Positions 51,677-56,299 of a stretch of DNA of 64,000 bases are shown here, piece by piece (position 1 is the first letter of the stretch; the number at the start of each line of letters is the position of its first letter). The position numbers and the translations under genes were made by a program. The notes below the pieces were generated by a model. It was not told the origin of the DNA. It ran no database searches and saw only the letters and a list, made by a program, of their open reading frames with translations. This stretch comes from a bacterium BMS3Abin02 (lineage in GTDB: Bacteria; Actinomycetota; Acidimicrobiia; Spongiisociales; UBA4744), in the NCBI GenBank assembly GCA_002897675.1, contig BDSU01000026.1:1-64000 (forward strand), read 5' to 3'.

Positions 51677-52492
51677 TCAGGATCGCCTCGCTGCCCGGTA
51701 GGTGCCGAGGATGTGGAGATCGTCGATCGAGTGCGGAGGCGGATCCAGGATCCGTGCCAGTCCGGCCGGCCCCGGCTCGTGCAGCAGATCCACGTAGAAG
51801 CGATAGGACCAGGCGGTCCTTCCCGGCCTGGACTCGATGCGGGTCAGGTTGGCGCCGCGCAACCCCAGTTCGGTGAGTGCCAGTGCCAGCGCACCCGGGC
51901 TGTGGGCAGTCGAGAACGAGATCGAGCTCTTGTTGTCGTCGGGCCCGGCGCAGGGAGGGCCGGGGGCGAGGGCCACGAACCGGGTGGCGTTGTGGTCACG
52001 GTCGACAACGTCGGAGAGCAGGACCTTCAGCCCGTAGCGCCGGCGCGCGTCGGGAGGGGCGAGGGCGGCCTGCGTCGGGTCGTGGTCCTCCGCGACGAGG
52101 CGTACCGCGCCGGCAGTGTCCGGCACGGCGACCGGCTCCCATCCACGGACGGTCAGCGTTTCGTGAGCTTGAGCCAGCGCCTCGGGATGCGACAGCACCC
52201 GCCGGATATCGGCCGGTTTCGCGCTGGGAAGACCGAGGAGGGCGTGGCGTATCCGCCCGTAGTGTTCAGCCACGATCGATGCGTCTGCGGTGGCGAGTCC
52301 TTTGAGGACTTCGAGGATGCTGCCTGTCGTCGAGTTCTCGATGGGGACGACCAGCAGGTCGACGCTGCCGTCGGCAAGAGCGGTGAAGGCCTCGGCGAAC
52401 CCGTGCAGTCCCACTGCCTCGGCCTTCGGATACAGGTCCGTCACGGCCTGGTGGCTGTAGGAGCGTTCCTCTCCCTGGTATCCGACCTTCAT
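51677..52492 (-). CDS. pheA: Prephenate dehydratase
   Basis: Converts prephenate to phenylpyruvate in phenylalanine synthesis. 271 residues: catalytic domain with GYQGEERSYSHQA and the NATRF active-site motif, then a C-terminal ACT domain with GALALALTELGLRGANLTRI and ESRP, which binds phenylalanine for feedback control. No chorismate mutase domain. It overlaps the upstream prephenate dehydrogenase gene by 4 bases and is the last gene of the Phe/Tyr operon. Confidence 0.92.
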   Translation of the reverse strand: MKVGYQGEERSYSHQAVTDLYPKAEAVGLHGFAEAFTALADGSVDLLVVPIENSTTGSILEVLKGLATADASIVAEHYGRIRHALLGLPSAKPADIRRVLSHPEALAQAHETLTVRGWEPVAVPDTAGAVRLVAEDHDPTQAALAPPDARRRYGLKVLLSDVVDRDHNATRFVALAPGPPCAGPDDNKSSISFSTAHSPGALALALTELGLRGANLTRIESRPGRTAWSYRFYVDLLHEPGPAGLARILDPPPHSIDDLHILGTYRAARRS

Positions 52493-53538
52493 CGCTCGTC
52501 GCCTCTGATTCGTGCCACGGTCAACGCTTCGGCATTCAACGCCTGGCAGAGAGCCGGAATGTCGCCGTTTCGCACGAACACCTGCAGCAGGCCGCCGCCA
52601 CCGTGAGGCGAGTGGCGAAGCTGCAGGTCACGCACGTCCACTTGGCTGTGGTCCAGCGCCCGGCCGACCGCGGCGAGTTCGCCCGGTCGGTCCAGCAACG
52701 AGACCTCGACCGTGCCCACCGCCGGATGGAGGTCTTCTTGGAGACGGCCCGCCTCGGCCAGTGCCGCGGCGACCTCCGCATGTGCCTCGACTTCGAGGAG
52801 ATCCGCCCATCGTTGCAGCCTGCAACCGAACCGTTCGATGGTCTCGACCACCAACGGCCGGTTGGCAGCCAGCAGCTCGGACCACAGATCGGCATCGGAG
52901 GCGGCCACACGGGTGAGGTCGCGAAAGCCGCCACCGACGAGGGAGAGGTCTCCAAGCTCTGTCGCGGCTTCCGCGATCAACGTGGAAGCCAGCAGCTGCG
53001 GCAGATGACTCACGACGGCGACCGCCCGATCGTGCTCGCCTGCGGACATCCGCACCGGGTTGGCTCCGAGCTGTCGCACGATTTCCTCGACCTGCTCGAT
53101 ATCGTCGGAATCGGCCCCGTCTGTGATGAGGATCCAGGTCGCTCCACGAAACAACACAGGCGTGGCGGCCTCTGGGCCGCTCACCTCCCGTCCTGCCATC
53201 GGATGACCGGGCACAAAGTGGGCGAGATGGGCTCCAGCGGCAATCACGGGGGCTTTGACGCCGGTGACATCGGTCACGAGCACGTCGGTCGAGAGCCTTC
53301 GCAGTGTCACAGGGACCGGTTTCGGCGGGCCGGCCAGGACGAGCAGATCCAGATCCTCGGAGATGAGATCGTCTTCGGAGGTGGCGATTCGGGCTACGGC
53401 GCCTCGCTGGTGCGCCACACGCAGTGACGCAAGGTCCGGGTCCCAGCCGACCAGGTCCCATCCCGCTGCGGCCAGCCCGAGGCCGATCGACGCGCCGATC
53501 AGCCCGGTTCCGAGGATTCCCGCCTTGCCCTCACGCAC
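52489..53538 (-). CDS. tyrA: Prephenate dehydrogenase
   Basis: NAD(P)-dependent oxidation of prephenate to 4-hydroxyphenylpyruvate for tyrosine, 349 residues. Rossmann [17 protein letters not shown] (10-26), the prephenate site HPMAG (152-156 region) and a C-terminal ACT domain ([19 protein letters not shown]) that suggests tyrosine feedback. GTG start overlaps the DAHP synthase stop by 8 bases. Middle gene of the operon. Confidence 0.9.
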
Positions 53539-54625
53539 CAGCCCGGCTCCTGCCGGCCGCCGCCACGAGCGGTGTCAGGGCGCGATGTTGCGCTCTACGG
53601 GATTGGTGCAGAATGGTCTCGAACAGTGCCTGCACCACCTGGGGGTCGAGCCCGGAGCCTTCCGCCTCCGCCGCCAGACCGGCCAGGATCTCGGCTTCAC
53701 GGCCGGGACTGTGCAGCGGCAGGCCGCGCGCCGTCTTGGCCTGGCCGATCTCGACCGAACGTGAGAGTCGCTGGGCGAGGAGTCGAAGGATCTGGCGGTC
53801 GATCCGATCGATGTCCTCACGAACCGAGACAATGCCGAGCGCCTCCATGAGCCGCTCGAATCCGGCGCCGTCGAGCTGCTGTGGACCGTCGGAGAGGGCC
53901 CGGTCCGGCTCCGGATGCACCTCGACCATCATGCCGTCGGCTCCGACGGCGCGCCCGGCGAGCGCGAGCGGAGCAATCAAATCTCTGCGACCCGAAGCAT
54001 GGCTGGGATCGATGATCACCGGCAGGTGACTGAGCGCTTTCACGACGGGGACCGCCCCTATGTCGAGGGTATTCCGGGTGCTGGTCTCAAACGTCCGTAT
54101 GCCGCGTTCACACAGCACGACCTGGGCATTGCCGCCGTCCAGGATGTATTCGGCGGCGAGCAGCCACTCATCGACGGTGGCGGCCAGACCTCGCTTGAGG
54201 AGGACCGGCTTGTCCGAACGTGCAACCGCGCGCAACAGAGCGAAGTTCTGCATGTTGCGGGAGCCGATCTGGAGCATGTCGACGTGGCCTGCCACGAGGT
54301 CGACGTCGGCCGGTTCCATCACCTCCGAGATCGTCGGAAGGCCCGTCCTCCTCCCGGCCTTTCCGAGGATGCGGAGGCCTTCCGGACCGAGACCCTGGAA
54401 CGAGTACGGGGAGGTTCTCGGCTTGTAGGCCCCACCGCGCAGCATCGAAGCGCCGTTGCGGGCGACGATCCCGGCAGCTCGCATCATCTGCGCGTCGCTT
54501 TCGATGGCGCAGGGACCGGCGATCACCGGGTAGGAGCCGTTGCCGAACTGCACCGGGCCGACCCGAACCACGGTCGTGGTCGAGCCTTTGCTGCGATGAC
54601 TCTTCAATGTTGGCTGGCTGCTCAT
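53531..54625 (-). CDS. aroG: DAHP synthase-chorismate mutase fusion
   Basis: First enzyme of the shikimate pathway fused to chorismate mutase, 364 residues. The type Iβ-like DAHP synthase part (about 25-260) has [35 protein letters not shown] and [12 protein letters not shown]. The C-terminal AroQ chorismate mutase (about 270-355) is [20 protein letters not shown]. The CM domain is usual at the N-terminus in some Bacilli; here it is at the C-terminus. First gene of the operon, directly behind the Phe/Tyr attenuator. Confidence 0.9.
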
Positions 54626-54664
54626 GGTGTCCGATCCTCTCTCGAGACCAGGACTCCGGGAACG

Positions 54665-54690
54665 AAAAACCCGGAGCCGTCGGCTCCGGG
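54665..54690 (-). terminator. Phe/Tyr operon attenuator terminator
   Basis: Perfect 10-bp stem CCCGGAGCCG/CGGCTCCGGG with a 1-base centre (effective loop larger), followed on the minus strand by TTTTT. It lies between the leader peptide and the DAHP synthase start. Its 5' arm (CCCGGAGCC) can instead pair with the leader segment GGCTCGGG (8 bp, one bulge), an antiterminator; that segment can also pair with the earlier CCCG. This is the full classical attenuator set. Confidence 0.85.
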
Positions 54691-54716
54691 CTGAAGGGGT
54701 TGTGTCGTGTGCCTGC

Positions 54717-54788
54717 CTACTGGCGCGTTCCCTTCACCCGAGCCTCGGGCCCGGCGTAAAAGAACGTAAAGACGTAGGCGGTTCTCAT
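54717..54788 (-). CDS. Phe/Tyr leader peptide
   Basis: A 23-residue frame, [13 protein letters not shown] then [10 protein letters not shown]. Residues 5-11 hold two Tyr and three Phe, the end products of the operon. The Phe/Tyr cluster lies just before the CCCGAGGCTCGGG pairing segment, so a ribosome stalled for charged Phe or Tyr tRNA would free the antiterminator. ATG lies 9 bases past the -10 box and no Shine-Dalgarno is seen, so it is nearly leaderless. Translation is inferred. Confidence 0.82.
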
Positions 54789-54797
54789 CTGACGAGG

Positions 54798-54826
54798 AGC
54801 ATAGCCACGTCGTGGGGGAGAGCCAA
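54798..54826 (-). promoter_or_regulatory. Phe/Tyr operon promoter
   Basis: Minus strand: TTGGCT (54826-54821), a 17-base spacer and TATGCT (54803-54798). The predicted start is 2-4 bases before the leader-peptide ATG. Confidence 0.7.
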
Positions 54827-55156
54827 GGAGTTCTTGTCGCGACGCTCCGATGTCGAGACGGACGTTCTGTGGCCACCGAGGACATTCCCGATCGCCGTGC
54901 CACGTGTGTTCCGGCGGCTGCGACAGGGCGATGGGGAAGCCGACCCTCCGTCGGGTCGGTGGGTTGGCTGCTCGATCAGGTAGTTTTGCAGGTAGCAGAC
55001 GAATCAGATGGGAGAAGACGAAGGGTGAGCGCGGGCCATGACCGCAGATTCACCGGCGTTGGGTGAGCAAGGGGTTCTACAGGAGAGTGTGGCTCGTCAA
55101 GGTGTTGCCGAGCGGCCGGCCGGATTCGAAGTGCACCAAGAATGAGGAGGCTTTCA

Positions 55157-56299
55157 GTGGACATCATCAACAGAGGTATGTTCGACGCTCTGGTCGACTC
55201 GACGGCATCGCCCGCGGTGTCGATCTACATGCCCACACATCGTTTCGGGCCGGAGATTCAGCAAGATTCGATCCGTTTGAAGAACCTGCTCCAAGCGGCC
55301 CATCGGAGCCTCGTGAGTGATGGTGTGCGGGCGCCGGAGGCAGAGACACTGCTTCGTCCCGCTTCTGAACTGAGTGATGATCCCAGCTTCTGGCAGCATC
55401 AGGAAGACGGATTGGCCCTGTTCCTCGCACCGGACCGGTTCGACTCATACCGACTCCCCGTGGCGTTCAAGGAATTGGTGGTGGTGGGTGAGACGTTCCA
55501 CGTCAAGCCTCTGCTACGGGTGATGAGCCGGGGCGAGCGCTTCTATGTGCTGGGTCTCAGCCAGCAGCGGGTGCGGCTGCTGCGGGCAACGAGATACCGG
55601 GTGGGTGAGGTCGATATCAAGGATGAGGTCCCGGAGAGTCTGGCCGAAGCGCTCTGGTTCGAGGATCCCGAACGGCAGTTGCAGTTCCATCAGTCGGCAC
55701 GACAAGGAGAAGGAAGGCTGACGGCTACGTTCCATGGTCACGGGATGGGAAAGGAGACGTCGTACAAGCGACTCGAGCGGTTCTTCCGGGCCGTCGATGA
55801 AGGGATCGGCCAGCTCGTCGAAACCGATGCTCCTCTTGTGCTGGCCGGTGTGGAGTACCTGCTTCCGATCTATCGTCGTGTGAGCGAGCATCCCACGATC
55901 CTCGATGGCGAGATCACCGGAAACCCCGAGGACCTCACTGCCGAGGAACTCCACGAACGGGCGTGGAGTATCGCCGAACCGTTCTTTCGAAAGGAACGAG
56001 ATGCAGTCGCGGCATCGTTCGCGACCGGTGCTCGCCCTACCGAAACCACCATCGAGGCCATTCTGCCCGCTGCTTTTCAAGGGCGAGTGGCGACCCTGTT
56101 CGTTGCAGAAGACACGATCGAGTGGGGAGTGGTGAAACTTCCGACATCCGTGGAACGGCACGAAGAACGTGAGCCTGGAGATCGCGATCTGCTCGATCTC
56201 GCCGTCGCGGAGACATGGCGGCACCGAGGATCCGTCTATCTGGAACCGGCCTCGGAGGTCCCGGGCGGCGGGGTGGTTGCCGCCGTGCTCAGATACTGA
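55157..56299 (+). CDS. baeRF-family protein (archaeo-eukaryotic release factor-like)
   Basis: A 380-residue protein resembling bacterial members of the eRF1-like (baeRF3-type) superfamily. Recognisable segments are SIYMPTHRFGPEIQQDSIRL, the mid FHVKPLLRVMSRGERFYVLG and the C-terminal GRVATLFVAEDTIEWGV. Predicted to act near ribosomes in rescue or stress, but no bacterial member has a firmly shown role (established family knowledge). I chose the GTG at 55157, 6 bases after AGGAGG, over the ATG at 55142. Confidence 0.78.
   Translation: MDIINRGMFDALVDSTASPAVSIYMPTHRFGPEIQQDSIRLKNLLQAAHRSLVSDGVRAPEAETLLRPASELSDDPSFWQHQEDGLALFLAPDRFDSYRLPVAFKELVVVGETFHVKPLLRVMSRGERFYVLGLSQQRVRLLRATRYRVGEVDIKDEVPESLAEALWFEDPERQLQFHQSARQGEGRLTATFHGHGMGKETSYKRLERFFRAVDEGIGQLVETDAPLVLAGVEYLLPIYRRVSEHPTILDGEITGNPEDLTAEELHERAWSIAEPFFRKERDAVAASFATGARPTETTIEAILPAAFQGRVATLFVAEDTIEWGVVKLPTSVERHEEREPGDRDLLDLAVAETWRHRGSVYLEPASEVPGGGVVAAVLRY

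Follow-up and report, generated by a model that had tools for sequence, protein, structure and literature searches.

The aroG-tyrA-pheA operon is very probably preceded by a ribosome-mediated transcription attenuator for phenylalanine and tyrosine, in which a short leader peptide senses the supply of charged tRNA-Phe and tRNA-Tyr. On this reading of the sequence, the element would serve as a switch that turns on the Phe/Tyr biosynthesis genes of an uncultured actinobacterium when Phe/Tyr run low. A Phe/Tyr leader-peptide attenuator had already been proposed in the initial annotation, and both its structure and its class of mechanism appear well supported by the comparison with relatives described below, whereas we infer the start site, the translation of the leader, the switching and the response to each amino acid. 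Beyond the initial annotation go the probable leaderlessness of the peptide, Phe-only copies in front of pheS in one family, and Trp/Phe/Tyr versions in front of other DAHP synthases. All coordinates refer to the window, the whole 64,000-nt stretch of DNA that was analysed, in which all parts of the attenuator lie on the minus strand between positions 54826 and 54665.

The leader locus and the operon

The controlled genes are aroG (53531–54625, minus strand), encoding a type I-beta DAHP synthase with a C-terminal chorismate mutase fusion (PF00793, 1.3e-75; PF01817, 3.5e-22; also NCBIfam), tyrA (52489–53538, minus strand), a prephenate dehydrogenase gene that overlaps aroG (PF02153, PF20463), and pheA (51677–52492, minus strand), a prephenate dehydratase gene that overlaps tyrA (PF00800, 2e-49). 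The Pfam domains DAHP_synth_1 and CM_2, PDH and PDT, together with the overlapping genes, agree with the operon as first named. The Shine-Dalgarno sequence of aroG, AGAGGA, lies at 54635–54640 (minus strand). A gene for a baeRF-family (archaeo-eukaryotic release factor-like) protein is encoded divergently from the operon at 55142–56299 on the plus strand. Elsewhere in the window, positions 279–341 of the plus strand give an Rfam tRNA match barely over threshold (30.9 bits) that is not seen by ARAGORN and is possibly a tRNA remnant; the genome of the window has six WhiB genes, by which it was assigned to Actinomycetota.

Upstream of the leader, a -35-like hexamer TTGGCT (54821–54826, minus strand; 4/6 to consensus) and a -10-like hexamer TATGCT (54798–54803, minus strand) are separated by a 17-nt spacer, and the leader ATG at 54788 follows nine bases past the -10. 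The -10 and its distance to the start codon are conserved in relatives, but the description of this site as a good promoter overstates its strength, as it matches the sigma-70 consensus at 8/12 positions and was not called by the promoter scan. The leader ORF (54717–54788) comprises 23 codons with Tyr at positions 5 and 11 and Phe at positions 7, 9 and 10, which confirms the two Tyr and three Phe reported for residues 5–11 and places them on the minus strand, which had not been given. None of the other start-to-stop ORFs of 12–40 amino acids in the window (1372 in all, this one included) packs at least five Phe/Tyr into seven residues. The last control codons, TTC TTT TAC (Phe9, Phe10 and Tyr11; 54756–54764, minus strand), end on Tyr11, and they mark the modelled stall position deduced from the ribosome footprint.

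The control codons are followed by a predicted protector or pause hairpin, CCGGGCC/GGCTCGG (54754–54748 / 54744–54738), whose arm 1 is CCGGGCC (54748–54754, minus strand) and whose 1:2 helix is 98.7% paired across 26 sequences; the CCCG/CGGG pause pairing claimed for this place corresponds to a conserved hairpin at 54754–54738. Arm 2, GGCTCGGG (54737–54744, minus strand), can pair either with arm 1 or with the 5' arm of the terminator. The latter pairing had been recognised, but its continuation had been missed: the extension TGAAGGG (54730–54736, minus strand) pairs with CCCTTCA (54692–54698, minus strand), giving an antiterminator duplex of about 15 bp. The intrinsic terminator formed by arms 3 and 4, AGCCCGGAGCC-GAC-GGCTCCGGGTT (54668–54692, minus strand), precedes aroG and has a T5 tail that runs to 54665; the T5 terminator of the initial annotation was found, at 54692–54665, and a terminator scan of 54000–55300 gave no second terminator-like site. 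Its helix is 98.4% paired, and in 2 of the 26 sequences a G-C pair is replaced by A-U through a double change. The 138-nt leader RNA folds more stably than its dinucleotide shuffles (z-score -3.5).

In the proposed mechanism, transcription would start at the leader ATG or immediately beside it, and a ribosome would load on the leaderless end. With ample Phe and Tyr, it would run through to the stop codon and there cover the segment beside arm 2 and/or permit 1:2 pairing, leaving the 5' arm of the terminator free, so that the terminator would form and transcription would end upstream of aroG. If Phe or Tyr is scarce, the ribosome would wait at the last Phe/Tyr codons (Phe10 or Tyr11) and cover arm 1; arm 2 and its extension could then pair with the terminator 5' arm while the 3' arm has yet to be transcribed, and with the antiterminator formed, RNA polymerase would continue into aroG-tyrA-pheA. 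A ribosome at the stop codon would cover the extension of the antiterminator or, in leaders that end within arm 2, this arm, and such coverage may account for the location of the extension within the leader ORF.

Equilibrium folding without a ribosome fails to separate the two states, and the unmasked sequence of the window folds the terminator regardless. Masking a ribosome in silico at the final Phe/Tyr codon let the antiterminator form at the decision point in 30/30 leaders, whereas placing it at the stop codon blocked this duplex in 26/30. In the four exceptions, which all belong to one genus (g6), the amino acid-replete model still favours the antiterminator. The masking result did not change across leading edges of 10 to 13 nt.

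Conservation in relatives and distribution

The search for the fused gene covered 59 genomes, most of which belong to the same order, and 30 loci were extracted from them for close comparison. All 30, from several families, have at the same position a short ORF containing Phe and Tyr codons; a hairpin CCGGG..CCCGG follows it, and behind that stands a terminator, either CCCGGAGC..GCTCCGGG or a variant with compensating changes. Phe and Tyr make up 21% of the leader residues, as opposed to 3% in the aroG proteins. A TAnnnT box is located 6–11 nt upstream of the leader start in 29/30 relatives, which is the spacing expected under leaderless translation, and the leader peptide is therefore probably leaderless, its transcript beginning at the start codon or close to it. 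In 27/30 leaders, UUU serves as the final Phe codon ahead of the hairpin, while within the aroG genes UUU accounts for only 20 of 224 Phe codons; either codon sensitivity or a constraint on the RNA could be the cause of this bias (54761–54759 in the window).

The flanks of the antiterminator differ by lineage. The window pairs GGGTGAAGGG with CCCTTCAGCCC, and elsewhere the pairs are GGGTTG/CAACCC, GGGTCGG/CCGACCC, GGGTAG/CTACCC and GGGCC/GGCCC. The classical covariation count on the nested 1:2 + 3:4 structure is weak in 26 sequences, since the core CGGG/CCCG is nearly invariant and pair counting has little power where bases hardly vary; for this reason, cognate and non-cognate partners were swapped instead. 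The duplex of arms 2 and 3 has a mean of -23.5 kcal/mol with the cognate partner and -19.2 kcal/mol with that of other species, a preference reached in 0/10,000 shuffles (30 relatives). With one species per lineage (13), 0/20,000 shuffles matched the cognate preference, and for the flanks alone 8/20,000 reached the cognate value. Since the 1:2 and 3:4 pairings are 98–99% paired and the 2:3 pairing covaries, the mutually exclusive set of helices is present. Loss of the Phe/Tyr codons or of the antiterminator pairing in relatives had been named in advance as the observation that would speak against the attenuator; the codons are kept at 30/30 loci, and the pairing covaries as described.

A covariance model built on 26 leaders matches 85 of the 138 genomes of the order. 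Across the class, 58/296 genomes match it, every one of them from the same order, and a phylum-wide draw gave 9/396, seven of them weakly. Weak phylum-wide matches (L169–L173) were treated as chance, and these loci contain no aromatic leader. In 40 genomes of another order of the class, the matches to the protein cover its chorismate mutase part only, and this explains the restriction of the leader. Within the order, the fused-gene leader is degraded in the genus g7, and the genome G033 has none. The predicted attenuator is conserved in most families of its order.

Control codons and the downstream gene

Some of the model matches in the family f2 are additional and precede pheS (NCBIfam TIGR00468), where Phe-only leader peptides are followed by a hairpin and a terminator (L148–L154, L156–L158, L162, L164, L166, L167, L255–L261). 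These peptides are predicted to be leaderless, and Tyr occurs in 0/21 of them. In the 18 genomes that have both leaders, Tyr is found in 18/18 aroG leaders and 0/18 pheS leaders, and Phe in all 36. Applied to 17 of the pheS leaders, the swap of partners gave no significant result (810/10,000 shuffles). In the genome of the window itself, pheS (L205) and the two other DAHP synthase copies have no leader by the pattern used.

Leaders with a third amino acid are found in front of other DAHP synthases. In the genus g7 (L161, L231–L233), a type I-alpha DAHP synthase gene (TIGR00034) stands behind leaders that combine Trp, Phe and Tyr, for instance MNIAWFSADYFFGPSGSK, and it is in these same genomes that the fused-gene leader is degraded; in one of the four g7 leaders read, that of G029, Trp is lost. 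Eight loci from a different class of the phylum have leaders of the form M..FGDWFFYGG.SPA, e.g. MRHVFGDWFFYGGRGPA, upstream of an unfused type I-beta DAHP synthase gene (L168, L174, L265, L267, L268, L269, L271, L273). The downstream gene was read in frame at most of these loci and could be made out only out of frame at the others; in two of the eight, Trp lies outside the Phe run. Two fused-gene leaders of the family f5 (L234, L235) also contain Trp, and the rule that codons follow the gene is therefore not absolute. Overall, the Phe, Phe+Tyr and Trp+Phe+Tyr leaders fit enzymes that serve one, two and three aromatic amino acids, respectively, as far as sequence can tell. Tentatively, we propose a single leaderless module in Actinomycetota that is set before different aromatic genes with its control codons retuned, i.e. 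Phe for pheS, Phe+Tyr for the fused operon and Trp+Phe+Tyr for the DAHP synthases feeding all three pathways, a proposal that we regard as plausible and just short of probable. If it is true, the Trp+Phe+Tyr version would be an attenuator sensing all three aromatic amino acids.

These codon patterns also bear on whether Tyr is read at all. The leader may sense Phe only, with Tyr codons that are tolerated or aid pausing, as reported for aroR of Corynebacterium glutamicum, which according to a review responds to Phe and not to Tyr (PMC11802643). Every leader has Phe, including those of pheS, and the last Phe codon is a fixed element directly before the hairpin (the UUU noted above). However, idle Tyr codons hardly explain the presence of Tyr in 18/18 aroG leaders and its absence from all 21 pheS leaders, and the last control codon in the window is Tyr11. 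Sensing of Phe alone is thus possible but unlikely.

It is very unlikely that control runs through the peptide itself instead of through tRNA supply, be it by peptide-induced arrest in response to free Phe/Tyr or by action in trans. The terminal FTGP.AR of the peptide shows good conservation, and leader peptides that act in trans exist, such as peTrpL of Sinorhizobium (PMC7298713). But the conserved residues are encoded by conserved hairpin bases, so that a constraint on the RNA explains them, and the endpoints of the peptide vary widely among relatives. A chance ORF at an intrinsic terminator, or a fixed 5' UTR terminator that tunes expression without sensing amino acids, would agree with the strength of the terminator and with its formation in the unmasked window sequence, yet it leaves unexplained why all 30 relatives retain Phe/Tyr codons although the flanks change, why leader codons switch with the downstream gene and why the antiterminator covaries, and it is highly improbable. 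T-boxes control aromatic genes in other Gram-positives, but a T-box or riboswitch binding tRNA or a metabolite and governing the terminator without translation has a negligible probability here, as the ORF and the attenuator arms fill the 162-nt leader and an Rfam scan of the window and the leader region gave no leader family, including Phe_leader, at gathering level, and nothing beyond chance-level matches at E up to 10. Attenuation by a ribosome that reads Phe and Tyr codons remains the preferred explanation.

Comparison with known attenuators

The kind of system is known, but this member, its order-wide spread and the retuning of its codons were not found described in the open literature searched. 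In a comparative survey from 2005, the Phe and Tyr operons of Actinobacteria yielded no RNA element (PMC1262725), and since then C. glutamicum aroR is the sole reported case as far as our search reached, so that the present leaders fill a gap. The series of Phe, Phe+Tyr and Trp+Phe+Tyr leaders, alike in layout and with two kinds in the same genomes, offers a ready-made test of how the choice of codons determines the amino acid that is read, and could also test whether one leader reads several amino acids.

The nearest described case is aroR/aroF of C. glutamicum, where a leader with Phe-Tyr-Phe precedes aroF and is reported to respond to Phe, not Tyr (Neshat 2014, via PMC11802643; PMC4046766). 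It shares with the present system the phylum Actinomycetota, a Phe-Tyr-Phe leader before a DAHP synthase and, as predicted for the present leader, ribosome stalling that raises transcription. It differs in its reported control by Phe only; here a single leader precedes aroG, tyrA and pheA, and the DAHP synthase is fused to chorismate mutase.

The attenuators pheL/pheA and pheM/pheST of Escherichia coli, of the Rfam Phe_leader type, resemble the present leaders in their Phe codons, in the alternative antiterminator and terminator, and in the placement of attenuators on biosynthetic and synthetase genes alike. Unlike pheL and pheM, the leader described here has both Phe and Tyr codons and no Rfam match. 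The E. coli pheL and pheM leaders start from a Shine-Dalgarno sequence.

Leaderless leader peptides are known from trpL, leuL and ilvL in Streptomyces and Corynebacterium (PMC8079986, PMC1262725) and from cysteine leaders in mycobacteria (Canestrari 2020, cited in PMC13236596). Those leaders serve other amino acids, but the one before aroG-tyrA-pheA is predicted to resemble them in that its transcript would begin at the start codon or close to it.
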